DNA of 55,497 nt from Candidatus Baltobacteraceae bacterium (lineage in GTDB: Bacteria > Vulcanimicrobiota > Vulcanimicrobiia > Vulcanimicrobiales > Vulcanimicrobiaceae): assembly GCA_036559195.1 (NCBI GenBank), contig DATBTN010000059.1, forward strand, positions 1 to 55,497. The letters run 5' to 3'. The stretch's first letter is position 1; each line of letters begins with the position of its first letter. Below the pieces are notes generated by a model. The model worked only from the letters and a program-made list of their open reading frames with translations, did no database searches and was not told where the DNA came from. Of the stretch, positions 7,320 to 16,332 are shown piece after piece. The translations under genes and the position numbers were made by a program.

Positions 7320-10300
7320 TTAGGCGAGGCTGGGCAGCGGAAGCGAGGGTCGGGTCGAGAGATCCGGGTAGGCCTCCTTGTGCTGCTCGGCCGCCGGCAG
7401 AATCAACCCGAGCGCGAAGTCGAGCTGCGGGTCTTTTCCGTTGCGGTAGTCTTGCGGCGCAAAGTCGATGTCGTAATCCGGATCCGTGCCGTAATTTTCA
7501 ACGTTCCAGCCCACGTCCTTAAACCAAAACGAGAACTCGGGCTGCGTGGTGATCGTTCCGTCGACCAAACGATGGTACGGATTGATGCCGATCACGCCGC
7601 CCCACGTGCGCTTGCCGACGAGCGGCCCTAGACCCATCAATTTGAAGCAATGGCTGAAGATATCGCCGTCGCTGCCCGCGTTCGCGTTGGTAATCGCAAC
7701 GATCGGGCCGCCAACCGATTCGGGCGGATACGGCACGGGCTTGCTGCTGTAACGGCCCACGTCGTAGCCCACGCGTTTGCGCGCGAGTTTCTCGAGCAGC
7801 AGCGGCGAAACGTGGCCGCCGCGATTGTACCGCACGTCGACGATGAGTCCGCGGCGATCGTACTCGGAGAGATACCCGCGGTGAAACTCCGAGAATCCCC
7901 ACGGGCCCATATCGGGAATGTGCACGTAGCCGATTTTGCCGCCCGACCGCTCGTGCACGTAGGCGCGATTGGCGTCCACCCACGCCCGGTAGCGCAGCCC
8001 TTGTTCGCTCTCGAGCGTTTTAACCGTAACGCGCCGTTCGCCGCCCTTGCGGGCCTGCATCGTCAACGACACTTCGCGTCCGGCCGTGTGCACGAGCAAC
8101 TGTTGCGGCGTAATCGTGCGCGAGAGCCGCTTACCGGCGATTGCGAGCAAAATATCGCCTTCGCGAATTTCGAGCCCCGGTTCCGCGAGCGGTGAATCGC
8201 TCTCGCGATTCCATGAATCGCCGCGGTAGATGCGCTCGATCTTCCACCCGTCGCTGCTCGCGTCGTATGCGAGGTCGGCTCCGAGAAAGCCGCGACGATA
8301 TTGCGGCGGAATGCGGTGGTCGCCGCCATACTCGTAGGCGTGCGAAGTGCCCAGTTCGCCCTGCATCTCCCAGATGAGGTCGGAGAGTTCGGCGCGCGTG
8401 CGCACGCGCGGAAGAACGGCCGCATAGCGGTCGAAGACGCGGTCCCAGTCGATATCCGACATGTCTTCGACCCAGAAATGTTCGGTCTGCAAGCGCCAGG
8501 CTTCGCGGTACATCTGCGCCCACTCGTCGCGTGCATCGATCTCCACGGAGATCCGATCGAGATCGAGCCAACCGCTCTTGCGGCCCGCGTCGCCGGCGGG
8601 CTTGGGGGGCTCGTCGCCTTCATCGGGCAGGTCGCCGAGTGCGTCGAGGACGCGCAGCCGATCGTGCGAACGATAGACCAGCGTGTGGTGATCGCCCGCA
8701 ATCGCGATCTCGTTAACGTCCGGTGCGAAGACCGCGCAGCGCTGCTGCTCGAAATCGTAAGCGAGCAACGTTCCGGCGCCGTCCTCTTCGTCCCACGAGC
8801 GGCCGACCGGCTTGATTCCGCGTACGTCGAACTTCGTGAAGAAGACCCGGCCTTTAACGGCAACGAGTTGTCCGTAATCGCCCTCTTCAACCGGGAACCC
8901 GAGAATGCGCCCCGCGATTCCGTCGAAGTCGATCTCGACGTTCGCGGGTTTCTCTTGCTCTTTCTTTTTTTTGCCCGGCGATTGGTCGTCGCGATCGTCG
9001 TCATCGTGATGGTGTTCGTGATCGCGGTGGACCGGTTTGGGCTTGGGGACGAACGGATTGGGGACGTCGTCGCGAAGCGTGACGACGAACGGGCGCTGCG
9101 CCTGCGGGAAGCTCAGGTCGAATTGCAGCGCGTCGTAGACGGGATCGAAATCGCGCGCGGAGATGAAGTATAGGTATTTGCCGTCGGGATCCCACGCGGG
9201 ACCATGATCGACGCGCAGCTTCGGCGTGATGTCGTGAATCTTGCCCGACTTCACGCGCACCACGCGCACGATCGACTCGTTCGCGCTTTCGGGCCAGAAG
9301 ACGTAGGCAACGTAACGTCCGTCGGGCGAGAATGCCAGATCGGTGATGCGATTGCCGACGCTTTTGTCCACGACCCGCACGCTGCCGTCGCCGGCATCCA
9401 CCAACAGCAGCTCTTGGCGATGATTCGCGACCGCCAACAGATCGTCGGCCGGCGAGGCGACGAGCTCGGTCACGCGACCGATATCGCCTTTCGTAATGAC
9501 CGTCGGTTTGCAGCTCGCGTCTTGCGCGTGGATCGCGACTTGCTCGAGACCGTTGATGTCGGTCACGCAGGCGAAGCGCTTGCCATCGTGCAGCCAGGCG
9601 AACGCGCGATACCGCGCGGCGCTGCCGATTCCGTGGTGGACCGGAGCCTCTTCCCACAACGGCATCGTGAACGGTTGCCCGCGCGCGATGATGCCGATGC
9701 CCGTTCCGTCGCGCGAGGGTACGAATTCGTCGAGTTCGTCGGTGCCATCGGAGAAACGGCGGACCGTTTGCGGCTGCGCGGACGGCGTGGCGACCTCGAT
9801 TTCGTCCGTCCGGTCGCCGGCGATATCGTAGACGCGCAGCGCTCCGCCGGCCGCGTAGACGATGCGCGTTCCGTCGGTCGAGGGGAAGCGTACGTAATAC
9901 TCGGTTTCGTGCGTGTGACGCACGACGTCGCCGCCGTCCGGCGCGCAGGAGTACAGGTTGCCGATACCGTCGTGGTCGGCCGCAAAGTAGATGCGCTCGC
10001 CGATCCACATCGGCTGCACGGGATTGCCGTCGGGCAGGTGCAGCCGTTCGAAGTCGCCGCGGCCGCGCAGATCGACCCACACTTCTCCGCTGGTCCCGCC
10101 GCGGTAGCGTTTCCAGCGCGCATTGTCGTCGCCGTTGCGGCCGATCGCCACCCGCTCGTCCGCACCCAGACTCAGCGTTTTCATCGGCCCGAAGGGGAGT
10201 TCGCGCGGCACGCCGCCCTCCGGCGCGATCGCGAACCCGCGAGTCTCGCGTTCGTACCAGGCCGAGGGATTGCTCACGAAGAGAATCTCTTTCCCGTCGG

Positions 10301-10586
10301 GACTCCACCCGCTCACCGCCGCGACCGTGCCGCCAAGGAAGGTCAAGCGCTTGGGCCGCCCCCCCGCCGACGGCATCACGTAGACCTCCGGATGGCCCTC
10401 GTCGGTCGAGATGAAGGCGATCCGGCTGCCATCGGGCGAGAGTCGCGGATGCGACGACACGCCGGTGCTGGCGGTCAGCCGCACGGCGGTTCCGCCCTGC
10501 GCCGATACGCTCCAAAGATCTTCTTCACAGACAAAAACGAGGCGGTCGCCCGCGATGGTCGGGTAACGATAATAACCGTGGCTCAT
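7320..10586 (-). CDS. Tricorn-like protease (S41 family) with beta-propellers and PDZ
   Basis: Large peptidase of about 1,088 residues that degrades oligopeptides, by homology to archaeal tricorn. WD40-like/TolB-type beta-propeller repeats (RLSPDGSRIAFIS, SPDGRYVAYVF and others) fill roughly the first 650 residues. A helical segment, a PDZ domain (LEIREGDILLAIAGKRL) and the C-terminal tail-specific protease domain follow. The nucleophile Ser is in NANAGSDGDIF. A His/Asp/Lys-rich spacer (HRDHEHHHDDDDRDD followed by poly-Lys) lies between propeller blades. I prefer ATG 10586 (MSHGYYRYP); an in-frame ATG at 10667 would overlap the uppS promoter region. No signal peptide is seen, so it is probably cytoplasmic. 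Confidence 0.88.
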   Translation of the reverse strand: MSHGYYRYPTIAGDRLVFVCEEDLWSVSAQGGTAVRLTASTGVSSHPRLSPDGSRIAFISTDEGHPEVYVMPSAGGRPKRLTFLGGTVAAVSGWSPDGKEILFVSNPSAWYERETRGFAIAPEGGVPRELPFGPMKTLSLGADERVAIGRNGDDNARWKRYRGGTSGEVWVDLRGRGDFERLHLPDGNPVQPMWIGERIYFAADHDGIGNLYSCAPDGGDVVRHTHETEYYVRFPSTDGTRIVYAAGGALRVYDIAGDRTDEIEVATPSAQPQTVRRFSDGTDELDEFVPSRDGTGIGIIARGQPFTMPLWEEAPVHHGIGSAARYRAFAWLHDGKRFACVTDINGLEQVAIHAQDASCKPTVITKGDIGRVTELVASPADDLLAVANHRQELLLVDAGDGSVRVVDKSVGNRITDLAFSPDGRYVAYVFWPESANESIVRVVRVKSGKIHDITPKLRVDHGPAWDPDGKYLYFISARDFDPVYDALQFDLSFPQAQRPFVVTLRDDVPNPFVPKPKPVHRDHEHHHDDDDRDDQSPGKKKKEQEKPANVEIDFDGIAGRILGFPVEEGDYGQLVAVKGRVFFTKFDVRGIKPVGRSWDEEDGAGTLLAYDFEQQRCAVFAPDVNEIAIAGDHHTLVYRSHDRLRVLDALGDLPDEGDEPPKPAGDAGRKSGWLDLDRISVEIDARDEWAQMYREAWRLQTEHFWVEDMSDIDWDRVFDRYAAVLPRVRTRAELSDLIWEMQGELGTSHAYEYGGDHRIPPQYRRGFLGADLAYDASSDGWKIERIYRGDSWNRESDSPLAEPGLEIREGDILLAIAGKRLSRTITPQQLLVHTAGREVSLTMQARKGGERRVTVKTLESEQGLRYRAWVDANRAYVHERSGGKIGYVHIPDMGPWGFSEFHRGYLSEYDRRGLIVDVRYNRGGHVSPLLLEKLARKRVGYDVGRYSSKPVPYPPESVGGPIVAITNANAGSDGDIFSHCFKLMGLGPLVGKRTWGGVIGINPYHRLVDGTITTQPEFSFWFKDVGWNVENYGTDPDYDIDFAPQDYRNGKDPQLDFALGLILPAAEQHKEAYPDLSTRPSLPLPSLA

Positions 10587-10639
10587 GGGACTTGGGAAGT
10601 TGGCGACCGGAGGACGCCGTTCCGCTCGCGGTCCCCGGC

Positions 10640-10675
10640 TTGCACCCGTTATTACTTTGTGATACAAAGTAAATC
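10640..10675 (+). promoter_or_regulatory. Candidate uppS promoter with palindromic operator
   Basis: TTGCAC (10640-10645) and TACAAA (10663-10668) are separated by exactly 17 nt and fit a sigma70-type promoter. A palindrome, TTACTTTG / CAAAGTAA with a 5-nt centre (10652-10672), covers the -10 element, as a repressor operator would. The uppS ATG (10676) begins only 7 nt after the -10, so the transcript would be leaderless or nearly so. The divergent tricorn gene could share the operator. Confidence 0.5.
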
Positions 10676-11417: not shown

Positions 11418-12827
11418 CTAGAGCGAGTTGCGGTCCTTTGCGCGTTCGAGCAGATCGCCTAACGTCTTGATCAAGAGTTGGGCGTTGTGCAGCTGGAGGC
11501 GCGGCCCCGCCAGCCGCGGCGTCGCGCTGCGTTTTTCGAAGGGCAGCACGGTGCCGCCCGGCGGAAAGGCAATCGCGGGGAAGCCGGCGATGCTGCGAAA
11601 GATCAGCTCGGCATAAAATGCGTTGGCCCAACCGAATTCGGCGCGCGTGAATCGCCAGTAGCCGTCGGGATAGAAACTCTCGTGAATGAGTCCGTCTTTG
11701 CTGTCGGTCTCCGCGAGGGTCGTGATGCTTTCGTCGACTTCGGCGCTCGACGTGGCCGTGAGCGCGCGCGCGATGATGCCGAGCGGCCACACGAATCCGG
11801 CGGGCGTATGCGGGCTGCCGAGTCCCTCGGCATAGCGTCCTTTGAAATAGTACGGATTGCGTTTGGAGAGTGCGAACGCGCGCGTGTTGAGATAGGCCGG
11901 GTCTTCGTTCGAACACCACCCCAACGCCGGCAGCGACGTCAGGTTCGGCACGTTCGCATCGTCCATGAGCTTGTCGTGTCCCAAACCATCGGTCTCGTAG
12001 ACGTAGATCCAACCGCCGAGCGCGGGATTGTAGACGCGGCCGTACCGTTCGATGCCGACCTGAACCTCGTGCGCGAGCGTATCCGCATCGTGCGAAAGAC
12101 GCGCGTCATGCCAGCCGCTGCGCGCGAGCCGCCCGATTTCGAGCAAGGCCACGACCGCGATCGCCTCTTGAGGTATGTTGAAGCGATACGTCACGGCGTC
12201 GTCGGACGGGCGAAACGCATCCCAGATCATGCCGGTCGCATCGTTGTAGGCGTCGTGCGTGGCCACGCGGTACGGGTAGTTGTAGCGGTCGCAGCGATCG
12301 TGATGCTGTTCGCAGCGATACGTGGCGACGATCGTGCGCAGCGCCTCGTGCAGATCGGAGGTAAAAAGATGGCGGTCGCGGCTTTCGCGCCAGTAGGTCC
12401 ACGCGAGCAGCACCGGCCACGCGAGCGAATCGACCTCCCACTTGCGTTCCCACACGTGATAGTTGGCTTGAAACGCGTTCGCGTACGGATCGGCGATCGC
12501 GTTGCGGGCGTTGCGCTGGATCACTTCGTCGATGCGCAGCGAGAGAATCGGGTAATACCGGCCGAAGCGCACGTACGGCAGCGTCTGCGCGCTCGAATCG
12601 CGCAGCCACATCGCGGGGATATCGCCCGTCTGCACGTACGTCGTGCCGTCGCGCTCGCTAAAGAAGTCGGTGAAGAGCGTGTGAAAGAGCGAACTCGCTT
12701 CGATCGGCCGGATGCGCTGGCCGGTCATCGGCAGCGAGACGTCCTGCGCGTTTGCGGGCGCAATGGCGCGCAGAAGCACGACGGCAAGTGCGAGGCCCGC
12801 CAAGAGCCGCGATCGGTGTAAACGCAA
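11418..12827 (-). CDS. GH125 exo-alpha-1,6-mannosidase
   Basis: Secreted glycoside hydrolase of 469 residues with an N-terminal signal peptide (cleavage near APANAQD). TGDIPAMWLRDSSAQ, GMIWDAFRPSDD and TDSKDGLIHESF match the metal-independent GH125 family, which removes terminal non-reducing alpha-1,6-linked mannose. With the GH38 enzyme at 36.7 kb it suggests turnover of mannose-containing glycans, either taken from other organisms or the cell's own. The 3' ends of this gene and uppS converge 25 nt apart. Start ATG 12827 begins a normal signal peptide. Confidence 0.88.
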   Translation of the reverse strand: MRLHRSRLLAGLALAVVLLRAIAPANAQDVSLPMTGQRIRPIEASSLFHTLFTDFFSERDGTTYVQTGDIPAMWLRDSSAQTLPYVRFGRYYPILSLRIDEVIQRNARNAIADPYANAFQANYHVWERKWEVDSLAWPVLLAWTYWRESRDRHLFTSDLHEALRTIVATYRCEQHHDRCDRYNYPYRVATHDAYNDATGMIWDAFRPSDDAVTYRFNIPQEAIAVVALLEIGRLARSGWHDARLSHDADTLAHEVQVGIERYGRVYNPALGGWIYVYETDGLGHDKLMDDANVPNLTSLPALGWCSNEDPAYLNTRAFALSKRNPYYFKGRYAEGLGSPHTPAGFVWPLGIIARALTATSSAEVDESITTLAETDSKDGLIHESFYPDGYWRFTRAEFGWANAFYAELIFRSIAGFPAIAFPPGGTVLPFEKRSATPRLAGPRLQLHNAQLLIKTLGDLLERAKDRNSL

Positions 12828-12978: not shown

Positions 12979-13974
12979 TTGACCCAAACCGAACATGCCG
13001 CCCTCCTGCGGGAGTTTGAGGCCCGCTCTCCGCGCGCGCTCGCGCGCGCCATCTCGCTCTGCGAGGGCGGTCGCGGCGCCGAACTCATGCGCGCGCTCTA
13101 CGGCAAAACCGGGCGGGCGCTTACCATCGGATTGACCGGGCCGCCGGGCGTGGGCAAGTCGACGCTGAGCTCGGCCCTCGTGCGTAAAGCGCGCGCGCTC
13201 GGCAAGACGGTCGGCGTCATCTCGGTCGACCCGTCCTCGCCGTTTTCCCACGGCGCGCTGCTTGGCGATCGCATTCGTCTCACCGAACACTTCACCGATA
13301 GCGACGTCTTCATCCGCTCGATGGCCAGCCGCGGTCACTTAGGCGGGCTCGCGGGCGCGACCGCGGACGCCGTTTCGCTGATGGATGCCTTTGGCAAAGA
13401 CGTGATTCTGATCGAGACCGTCGGCGTAGGCCAGTCCGAGATCGAGATCGCCGAACTCGCGCAGACCACGATCGTCGCGCTGCAGCCCGGCAGCGGCGAC
13501 TCGATTCAGGTGCTCAAAGCCGGGATCATGGAAGTCGCAGATATTTTCGTGGTCAACAAGGCCGACCACCCCATGGCCAATCAGCTCAAACGCGAGATTC
13601 GCTCGATGATGGAGATGCTCGATTTCTCGGGCTGGGTGCCGGAGCTCGTGATGACCAACGCCTTGGCCGGCGACGGAATCGACGATCTCTGGACGGCCGT
13701 ACAGACGCACCTCGCCTATCTGACAAGCAGCGGCGAACTCGACCAAAAACGGCGCGAGGCCTACGTGCACCAGGTGCGCCAGCTGGCTCTGGGGCATCTG
13801 CAGCGCCGGCTCGAGCGCGAACTCGACGGCGATATCGCCACCGGCATCGATCCCTACGCGGCCGCCGACCGGGTGCTCCAGGCCTTCGGCGCGGGCGCCG
13901 AAGCGGGCGACGAACCGGCGCGTGCGCCGCGAAATCGCGCGGCGGTCAAAGGGCTGACGGGCCATCCCGCCTGA
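12979..13974 (+). CDS. meaB: MeaB-type G3E GTPase, chaperone of B12-dependent acyl-CoA mutase
   Basis: GTPase of 331 residues that guards loading and reactivation of adenosylcobalamin mutases. Motifs: Walker A GPPGVGKST, the family-typical VDPSSPFSHGALLGDRIR, ETVGVGQSE, and the base-specific NKAD. Length fits stand-alone MeaB. I choose TTG 12979 (TQTEHAALLREFEARSP) because the conserved helical N-terminus begins there and AAAAGG precedes it; an upstream in-frame ATG at 12712 lies inside the GH125 gene. The mutase begins 81 nt downstream on the same strand, which supports a dedicated partner role. Confidence 0.92.
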   Translation: MTQTEHAALLREFEARSPRALARAISLCEGGRGAELMRALYGKTGRALTIGLTGPPGVGKSTLSSALVRKARALGKTVGVISVDPSSPFSHGALLGDRIRLTEHFTDSDVFIRSMASRGHLGGLAGATADAVSLMDAFGKDVILIETVGVGQSEIEIAELAQTTIVALQPGSGDSIQVLKAGIMEVADIFVVNKADHPMANQLKREIRSMMEMLDFSGWVPELVMTNALAGDGIDDLWTAVQTHLAYLTSSGELDQKRREAYVHQVRQLALGHLQRRLERELDGDIATGIDPYAAADRVLQAFGAGAEAGDEPARAPRNRAAVKGLTGHPA

Positions 13975-14055: not shown

Positions 14056-15768
14056 TTGGCCAAAATGATCGAGCGTCCGAGCGGGCTCGGCGCGCAACCG
14101 ACAACGCAATTCGTCCAGCAGCAAGAGCAATGGGAAGCTGCCGCCGCCAAGGGTAAGGGCCGTAAAGGTCCTGGCTCGGGCGCGGTCGATCGTACCATTT
14201 CCGATCTTCCTCTTAAGCCCGTTTACGGTCCGCAGGACGTCGAGCATCTCGATCTCGCGCGCGATGTAAGTTGGCCGGGGCAGTACCCGTACACGCGCGG
14301 CATTCATCCCAACATGTATCGCGATCGCTTGTGGACGATGCGTCAGTTCGCCGGTTTCGGTAACGCGAAGCAAACCAACGAGCGCTATCACTTCCTGCTC
14401 TCGCAGGGCCAGCACGGGCTCTCGGTCGCGTTCGACATGCCGACGCTCATGGGCTACGACTCCGATGCCGCGCAGGCGCGCGGCGAGGTTGGCCGCTGCG
14501 GCGTCGCGATCGATACGCTCGCGGATATGGAGCAGCTCTTCGACGGCATCGACATGGGCGACATCACGACCTCGATGACGATCAACGGTCCCGCCTGTAT
14601 CGCCCTCGCGCAGTACATCGCGGCGGCCGAAAAGAAGGGCATCCCGCGCGCGAAACTCGGCGGAACGATTCAAGCCGATATTCTCAAAGAGTACATCGCG
14701 CAAAAAGAGTGGATATTTCCGCCGCGCCCGCACATGCGCGTGCTCGTCGATATGATGCGCTTCACGCGCGACGAGATGCCGAAGTGGAACTCGATCTCCG
14801 TCTCGGGCTATCACATTCGCGAAGCCGGCTCGACCGCCGTGCAAGAACTCGCGTTCACCCTAGCCGATGGGTTCGCATACGTGGAGGCCGGCATGAAGGC
14901 CGGCATGGACGTCGACTCGTTTGCGCCGCGGCTCTCCTTTTTCTTTAACGCGCACATCGACTTTTTTGAGGAGATCTGCAAGTACCGCGCCGCACGCCGC
15001 ATTTGGGCGCGCCGTTTGAAGGAGAAGTACGGCGCGAAAGATCCGCGCTCGTGGCAGTTGCGCTTCCACACGCAGACCGCCGGCTGCAGCGCGACCGCCC
15101 AGCAGCCGGAGAATAACATCGTGCGCGTCGCGTTCGAGGCGATGGCTGCGGTGCTCGGCGGAACGCAATCGCTGCACACCAACTCGATGGACGAAGTGCT
15201 GGCGCTCCCAACCGAGAAATCCGTGGAGATCGCGCTGCGCACGCAGCAGGTGCTCGCCTACGAGACCAACGTCACCAACGTGGTCGATCCGCTCGGCGGC
15301 TCGTACTATGTTGAAGCGCTCACCGATTCGATGGAGGCGCAAGCCGAAGAGTACTTCCGGCAGATCGAGGAATACGGCGGCGTGATCGAAGCGATCGAGG
15401 CCGGCTTCTTCCAGCGCGAAATCGCCGACGCGAGTTATCGCTACCAGCGTTCGCTGGAAACGAAAGATCGCGTCATCGTCGGCGTCAACGCGTTCCAAAA
15501 AGAAGAGGGACGCGGCGATCTCGATCTGCTCAAGATCGGCGAGGAGATCGAACGCGGACAATCGGCATCGGTTTGCGCCATACGCGCGCAGCGCGATGCG
15601 AACGCGGTCGCGCGATCGCTCGAAGGCTTGCAGCGGGCCTGTAAAGACCCGCTCGACAACGTGATGCCGCATCTCATCGACGCGGTCAACGCCTACGCGA
15701 CCGAGGGCGAGATCGTGGAAGCTATGGTCGCGGTTTACGGGAGATACACGGAGCGCGCTGCGTTCTAA
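14056..15768 (+). CDS. icmA: B12-dependent acyl-CoA mutase large subunit, isobutyryl-CoA mutase type
   Basis: Catalytic TIM-barrel subunit of 570 residues without its own cobalamin domain. Overall it reads as the MCM/ICM family: [47 protein letters not shown]. At the two positions that set substrate choice in published comparisons, methylmalonyl-CoA mutase has Tyr89 and Arg207. Here Phe98 (RQFAGFG) and Gln216 (KEYIAQKEW) match the Phe80/Gln198 pair of isobutyryl-CoA mutase. Ala125 (SVAFD) differs from the Asp of 2-hydroxyisobutyryl-CoA mutase. TTG 14056 is preferred, with GAAGAGG 5 nt upstream; an in-frame TTG at 14038 is the alternative. The stop overlaps the next ATG. Confidence 0.85.
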
Positions 15769-15926
15769 TGAGTACCATGCGGACACACACCGAAATCGAA
15801 CGGCTCGCCGTTCGGCAAACCCTCGAAGAAGTTATGCGCAAGCTCGAAGAAGCGCTGCGCTTGAGCCGCGAACTCGATCGCGTCAAACGCGACGCGAGTT
15901 GCGAGCATAAGGGAGTTCATGGCTAG
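15768..15926 (+). CDS. Small helical protein between the mutase subunits (52 residues)
   Basis: An ORF of 52 codons whose ATG shares one base with the stop of the mutase gene (TAATG) and whose last 8 nt overlap the B12-subunit gene. The product starts [15 protein letters not shown], and residues about 8-42 form a charged amphipathic helix rich in Leu, Glu and Arg (TLEEVMRKLEEALRLSREL), suited to a coiled coil. AAGGGAG inside its 3' end is the ribosome site for the B12 subunit. It could be a small structural or assembly subunit, or a translated spacer that couples the two subunits. I know no named family for it. Confidence 0.65.
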   Translation: MSTMRTHTEIERLAVRQTLEEVMRKLEEALRLSRELDRVKRDASCEHKGVHG

Positions 15927-16332
15927 ACCGTTACGCATCGTGATCGCCAAAGCGGGTCTCGACGGGCACGACCGCGGCGCCAAAGTCATCGCGCGCGCGC
16001 TGCGCGACGCGGGGATGGAGGTCATCTACACGGGGCTCTTTCAGACCCCCGAGCAGATCGTTCAAACCGCGATTCAAGAAGACGCCGACGGCATCGGCCT
16101 CTCGATTCTCTCGGGCGCGCACATGACGCTCTTTCCGCTGATCGTCGATCAGCTCAAAGCCCAGGGCGCGGCCGACATCGTCTTTTTTGGCGGCGGCACG
16201 ATCCCCCCGGAAGATGCCGACGAGCTTCGCCATCGCGGCGTTCGTGAGATCTTCACGCCCGGCGCGCCGCTTGCCAACATCATCGACTTCGTTCAGCGCG
16301 AAGGCGGTCAACGCCGCGAACTCGTCGGCTAA
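15919..16332 (+). CDS. icmB: B12-binding small subunit of acyl-CoA mutase
   Basis: Cobalamin-binding protein of 137 residues, the length of known small mutase subunits. The base-off/His-on motif D-x-H-x-x-G is present as DGHDRG with His17 as cobalt ligand, followed by the Ser loop (LSILSGAH) and GGGT (FFGGGTIPPED). It completes the holoenzyme with the large subunit upstream. ATG 15919 has AAGGGAG in front, inside the small ORF it overlaps by 8 nt. gltX begins 2 nt after its stop. Confidence 0.93.
   Translation: MARPLRIVIAKAGLDGHDRGAKVIARALRDAGMEVIYTGLFQTPEQIVQTAIQEDADGIGLSILSGAHMTLFPLIVDQLKAQGAADIVFFGGGTIPPEDADELRHRGVREIFTPGAPLANIIDFVQREGGQRRELVG

Follow-up and report, generated by a model that had tools for sequence, protein, structure and literature searches.

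The 55,497 nt contig DATBTN010000059.1 of a Candidatus Baltobacteraceae bacterium (order Vulcanimicrobiales; assembly GCA_036559195.1), referred to at its full length as the window, carries on its forward strand a group of four genes for a B12-dependent acyl-CoA mutase. The first encodes a MeaB-type G-protein chaperone (12979..13974, +; PF03308, 4.8e-87; TIGR00750 over its cut-off), for which the TTG at 12979 is by inspection the likely start, the mechanical open reading frame (ORF) opening at 12712. The mutase large subunit (14056..15768, +) has 570 aa, with a TTG start at 14056, a stop at 15766-15768, and the Shine-Dalgarno-like sequence AAGAGG immediately 5'. A micro-ORF of 52 aa (15768..15926, +) follows; it opens with an ATG that overlaps the stop of the large subunit (TAATG) and runs into the start of the 137 aa small subunit (15919..16332, +; TIGR00640, 172.5 bits against a cut-off of 57.45). 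The small subunit is a separate B12-binding protein with the DxHxxG motif, here AGLDGHDRG, as belongs to a split isobutyryl-CoA mutase (ICM). By every sequence feature tested the large subunit is an ICM-type enzyme, its substrate being a prediction.

The specificity residues of the large subunit were read from HMMER alignments to solved structures and from 159 large subunits aligned separately with MAFFT, L087 being left out because its sequence is too short. In both, Phe98 and Gln216 fall on the columns of Tyr89 and Arg207 of methylmalonyl-CoA mutase (MCM), and Ala125 on that of Asp117 of the 2-hydroxyisobutyryl-CoA mutase (HCM) structure 4r3u, so that the three assignments made in the initial annotation are borne out. 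The F that PDB entry 5req displays at the Tyr89 column belongs, according to its title, to a Y89F mutant. The active-site Tyr-His pair, Tyr252/His253, is kept in the MAFFT alignment. An excerpt of PMC7238569 credits Tyr and Arg as the MCM specificity sites to Jost et al. 2015. The window protein has neither of these, carrying Phe and Gln instead. The same combination of Phe, Ala, and Gln (F/A/Q) is present in 30/30 window-type large subunits from other genomes of the order and, since these were taken as the best scores of a profile-HMM search in which the motif played no part, chance is excluded as the source of the pattern.

Beyond the order, a motif scan of public genomes yielded at least 597 stretches, of which all but one (596) encode relatives. 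The best 80 of these span many phyla, with Candidatus Eremiobacterota as the nearest named loci, and 78 of the 80 read F/A/Q. The motifs used contained F or Q, and these loci therefore demonstrate breadth rather than independent support; on these sequences the F/A/Q type is widespread and common, not rare. Of the other two, L087 is the one too short to align, and L101 is incomplete, with only the Q visible; L101 lies on a contig labelled Rhodospirillales, yet its mutase is 81% identical to that of the window, perhaps because an Eremiobacterota contig has been mis-binned. Two F/A/Q large subunits are on plasmids, that of Deinococcus (L070) with a small subunit and MeaB present, and that of Haloarcula (L071) without a small subunit over the length retrieved. 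No proven Streptomyces IcmA was found on plasmid records.

A tree of 96 rows, made by a quick method with SH-aLRT support only, separates the window large subunit from both the MCM-type and the HCM-type clades, in keeping with the earlier proposal that it is neither. It groups with its orthologs (support 100), among the F/A/Q rows, and its nearest neighbour outside the phylum is a Chloroflexi sequence at support 94, below the starred level. The Eremiobacterota MCM type forms a single clade of 11/11 rows, with support 100. Two Syntrophomonadaceae rows fall among the F/A/Q rows of this tree, drawn without a proven ICM, and the long branches L160, L161, and L076 are unsure in their own positions.

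The nearest solved structure would, taken alone, suggest that the window enzyme is an HCM (HCM/RCM). HCM HcmA/HcmB 4r3u is the closest to the large subunit (547 bits, TM 0.84-0.86), its subunits are of similar size, and it shares Gln at the Arg207 column. HCM enzymes are nevertheless marked by Ile (or Val) at position 90 together with Asp at 117, Ile90/Asp117 in 4r3u, where the window protein has Phe98 and Ala125. Some relatives, moreover, hold a separate third type of mutase that is HCM-like, with I/D/Q or V/D/Q at the three columns (nine loci, L185-L189 and L191-L194), accompanied by a small subunit in 9/9 and by MeaB in 7/9; of its eight rows in the tree six, all of them I/D/Q, group with the HCM references at support 99. 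The mutases of Xaut_5021 and Methylibium PM1, which we take to be HCM and whose residues agree, lie in clusters carrying an AMP-binding or CoA-ligase gene, and none adjoins the window locus. An HCM is thus a highly improbable identity for the window enzyme. The subunit sizes, 570 and 137 aa, had also been put forward as a mark of ICM, and this argument fails: in Xanthobacter and Methylibium the HCM subunits have 562 aa and 135-136 aa, and in Ilyobacter those of the split MCM have 558 and 131 aa.

AlphaFold modelled the large subunit with a mean pLDDT of 69, and about 30 around residue 98; the model was used for overall fold only. All 41 Foldseek matches with E up to 0.001 are mutases, in the order HCM 4r3u, then MCM, then IcmF. 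On this model the mutase barrel is intact; the model says nothing on the substrate.

The best curated family models for the large subunit, TIGR00641 and PF01642, carry MCM names, which might be taken to mean that the automatic label is right and that this is an MCM after all. There is one further large subunit in the same genome, on contig C58 (L002), of 525 aa and with Tyr/Ala/Arg (Y/A/R), to which the window protein is 51% identical. Upstream of it is a biotin-carboxylase subunit gene (pccA), with a carboxyltransferase subunit gene (pccB) farther up and an epimerase-like gene downstream, the gene names having been assigned by inspection of the sequences. Propionyl-CoA carboxylase or epimerase genes are usual near MCM, though not obligatory, and the position of the Tyr/Arg paralog beside them indicates that the methylmalonyl role belongs to the paralog. 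The same arrangement is seen in relatives: in 20 MCM-type loci picked to span genera, Y/A/R is present in 20/20, with the epimerase nearby in 20/20, pccA in 17/20, and pccB in 8/20, while a twenty-first fetched locus (L190) also has Y/A/R and no small subunit. The epimerase, pccA, and pccB are all absent from the 36 window-type loci compared, of which 30 were covered with flanks of only about 1.5 kb and 6 with about 6 kb; for most of the MCM-type loci the flanks are about 2 to 4.5 kb. The names of TIGR00641 and PF01642 cover the whole family, and Phe and Gln, not Tyr and Arg, are found in all 30 fetched orthologs. It is very improbable that the window enzyme is an MCM; on sequence evidence the MCM label fits the C58 paralog, and an isobutyryl-CoA-mutase-type label the window gene.

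From the known family, the large subunit would bind the acyl-CoA in its TIM barrel, the small subunit would carry the B12 cofactor, and MeaB would guard cofactor loading and repair. With Phe98 and Gln216 replacing the Tyr and Arg that grip the carboxylate of methylmalonyl-CoA, the ligand expected in the pocket is an acyl-CoA whose acyl group is short, branched, and without charge. The reaction would most likely be the interconversion of isobutyryl-CoA and n-butyryl-CoA, which would link branched-chain (valine-type) acyl-CoA to beta-oxidation, if the pathway runs in the direction supposed. In the part of PMC5017805 that concerns it, Syntrophothermus lipocalidus, an isomeriser of isobutyrate, has an isobutyryl-CoA mutase cluster that includes a MeaB-like protein. 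At F/A/Q loci elsewhere, 92 of the 191 neighbouring ORFs listed were scanned; acyl-CoA dehydrogenases are the most numerous, with 12/92, followed by Dxs, MutL, and UbiA-type proteins with five each. Of 72 such loci none has an epimerase homolog nearby, three have one of pccA, and five have one of pccB.

It is rather unlikely that the substrate is instead some other uncharged acyl-CoA, such as isovaleryl-CoA, pivalyl-CoA, or a longer branched chain. Xaut_5043, presumably a pivalyl-CoA mutase, differs at both specificity columns, with Leu for the Phe and Asn for the Gln of the window protein. The acyl-CoA dehydrogenase neighbours suit a short acyl-CoA, without excluding others. On the other side, the F/A/Q type is large and diverse, and the titles of PDB entries place isobutyryl-, butyryl-, isovaleryl-, and pivalyl-CoA in IcmF crystals, IcmF also being reported in an excerpt of PMC10481361 as active on both substrate pairs, so that such a pocket may be broad.

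Neither the distal valine pathway nor the genes between MeaB and the large subunit provided a usable clue to the pathway. Methylmalonate-semialdehyde dehydrogenase (MMSDH) is over the cut-off in 8/11 genomes (not in the genome of the window, G000, nor in G044 and G064) and 3-hydroxyisobutyrate dehydrogenase (HIBADH) in 0/11, so that an either/or relationship with ICM was rejected, there being no simple rule. Several enoyl-CoA-hydratase-like frames in the genome of the window are hit by the ECH_2 (HIBCH-type) model, in no case as one unbroken full-length match. The genes between MeaB and the large subunit vary among nine relatives' loci, where readable, and include an alpha/beta hydrolase (L023), a 3-hydroxyisobutyrate-dehydrogenase-like NAD-binding protein (L009), and unknowns; this interval was likewise set aside.

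That there are two large subunits in the genome raises the question of their B12 partner. A PF02310 search of the genome found three proteins with a B12-binding domain: the window small subunit, one of the size of MetH, and a fragment (L005:1-504) at the end of contig C8, which we presume to resemble the B12 domain of lysine 5,6-aminomutase. The window small subunit is the only acyl-CoA-mutase B12 subunit over the cut-off, and one full-length MeaB was found, at the window locus. Matches scoring like the L005 fragment occur in other genomes, in frames of 245-330 aa. Across 11 genomes, the PF02310 matches besides small subunits are frames of at least 245 aa, with two exceptions, this fragment and, in G037, a frame of 158 aa scoring below the small-subunit cut-off.

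Most genomes of the order show this deficit too. Large subunits outnumber small subunits over the cut-off in 78 of 83 genomes, by exactly one in 67, and the two are equal in five (one with 0/0, four with 1/1); in none are there fewer large than small. Fragmented genes inflate some of the large-subunit counts in this survey, but in the genomes of 10 contigs or fewer the excess is exactly one in 10/10, and the single-contig G073 has three large and two small. At the 20 fetched MCM-type loci of relatives there is neither a small subunit nor MeaB, and at window-type loci a small subunit is present in 29/30, so that it is the Tyr/Arg type that lacks its own small subunit. Exactly one full-length MeaB is found in each of the seven two-large-subunit genomes among the 11 searched, with two each in G073, G074, and G081 and one for three mutases in G037. 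Outside the phylum, large subunits exceed small in 13 of 14 genomes, 12 of which have two or three large and one small (Helarchaeota has three and two, Carboxydocella two and two), and those with a single small subunit have, in 12/12, a Tyr/Arg large subunit as well as the F/Q one.

Most genomes of the order hold at least two large subunits, from which it could be supposed that the window protein has no catalytic activity of its own and pairs with the MCM-type one, as the beta chain does in heterodimeric MCM. This is a far-fetched reading: Tyr252/His253 are kept, the alignment to catalytic alpha chains scores 467 bits as against 101 bits to beta chains, and in G029, G048, G059, and G069 the sole large subunit adjoins the sole small subunit, with no second large subunit detected.

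The simplest reading of these sequences is that one B12 subunit, and in the Eremiobacterota one MeaB, serve both the ICM-type and the MCM-type enzymes. The small subunit and MeaB of the window would most likely also serve the C58 Tyr/Arg large subunit, giving two interchangeable substrate subunits on a single B12 module, if the sharing is a physical one. It is quite unlikely that the small subunit is not shared and that the C58 protein either goes unused or works with a partner that escaped detection or assembly. The genome of the window is a draft (80 contigs, 96.9% complete), the case for sharing is built from counts and neighbourhoods, and three drafts have a large subunit without a small one, all of which would favour separate partners; the deficit is, however, the same in a single-contig genome, in 10/10 well-assembled ones, and in 12/14 from elsewhere, and the MCM-type protein keeps its Tyr/Arg, its Tyr-His pair, and its operon. 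Overall, the window probably encodes an ICM-type adenosylcobalamin-dependent acyl-CoA mutase, most likely acting on isobutyryl-CoA and n-butyryl-CoA, whose B12 subunit and MeaB also serve the C58 MCM.

Several points weigh against this. That Phe and Gln at the Tyr89 and Arg207 columns are the signature of ICM is a rule that we assume, and the rows of the tree include no biochemically proven ICM, Streptomyces IcmA and Slip_0757-0760 being outside it. The F/A/Q type spans many phyla, and there may be more than one substrate inside it. As far as the genes found indicate, ICM is not a simple substitute for the distal valine pathway. Most of the subunit counts come from draft genomes, and in each of the drafts G014, G027, and G031 (81-85% complete) a single large subunit, its type left unread, stands without any small subunit over the cut-off, which may reflect either missing sequence or a mutase without a small partner. 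The 158-aa protein in G037 is an extra one with a B12 domain. Carboxydocella has its own small subunit for each large one, so that sharing is not universal.

The initial annotation, which held that an MCM label would misstate the pathway, is right for the window gene, given the C58 Tyr/Arg paralog with its pccA, pccB, and epimerase. It overlooked that the small subunit and MeaB probably serve MCM as well, so that the locus, taken whole, probably has a part in propionate metabolism too.

ORFs similar to the micro-ORF, with the conserved core TLxEVxxKLEEALRLS, are present at 46 of 67 loci as 31 distinct peptides, with 19 loci lacking one and 2 that could not be judged. By genome this is 29 of the 42 judged and by genus 17 of the 19 judged, genus g34 being included for a weak match that one of its three genomes gives; g14 and g32 are without. 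Over all pairs the proportion of differences is 0.67 for synonymous and 0.40 for non-synonymous changes, and dS exceeds dN in 14 of the 15 closest listed pairs, the exception being L024/L034. A profile search of 11 genomes found the micro-ORF in six, at the mutase locus only, with nothing better than E 0.2 in G037, G064, G073, G074, and G081, from which it follows that the mutase can work without the micro-protein. AlphaFold, from three sequences, predicts a single helix of residues 2-48 with pLDDT 85. Against Pfam and NCBIfam there are scattered matches only (E of 0.01 or more) and no known family. Matches of the profile to solved structures were rejected, these being LEEALRL-like repeats in designed pentatricopeptide proteins, besides others that look like chance. 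Its position allows the guess that the micro-protein has a part in the assembly or stability of the small subunit.

As a probable split ICM the window locus resembles Streptomyces IcmA/IcmB, which we take to be a split ICM with the F/Q pair in IcmA, and Slip_0757-0760 of S. lipocalidus, in that the large and B12-binding subunits are separate. It differs from both in that its B12 subunit and MeaB appear to serve MCM too, in having a conserved micro-ORF between the subunits, and in its flanks, which are a GH125 glycosidase and gltX, with no adenosyltransferase gene among the flanking genes. IcmF (PDB 4xc6, 5cjt-5cjw) has a homologous barrel, B12 domain, and G-protein; it is one fused protein where the window has separate genes, and the large subunit scores only 293 bits to it. 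The split MCMs (Ilyobacter, Carboxydocella, and the C58 paralog) belong to the same family with the same division of subunits, that of Ilyobacter being 54% identical, and differ in the Tyr/Arg pair and in the pcc and epimerase neighbours. No statement on the sharing of a B12 subunit between mutases was found in the open-licence papers searched with the terms used. The ICM identity alone would make the enzyme a new member of an already-known kind; it is the B12 subunit, which across phyla appears to be shared with MCM, together with the micro-ORF, that makes the organization a new one.

Among the other features of the contig, the GH125 protein is an alpha-mannosidase (11418-12827, -), and a Tricorn-type protease (7320-10667, -) is also near the mutase locus. 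There is no cobalamin riboswitch at the gathering threshold in the window or in the fetched C58 stretch. Two tRNA genes are close to the contig end (54810-54881 and 55422-55493, +).

MCM-named family models, read literally, put the window gene in the wrong pathway, and the same F/A/Q type is present in many other phyla. The micro-ORF would be a concrete new component for a well-studied enzyme class. It is possible, if doubtful, that in many phyla an isobutyryl-type and a methylmalonyl-type mutase depend on one B12 subunit and one MeaB, their substrate subunits competing for that B12 subunit, and that in the Eremiobacterota the helical micro-protein, made by translational coupling, helps to assemble or apportion it. 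If the B12 subunit is truly shared, matching large to small subunits gene by gene would be wrong for many genomes, the loss of one small-subunit gene would hit two pathways together, and the allocation of cofactor between two mutases would become a directly testable question.

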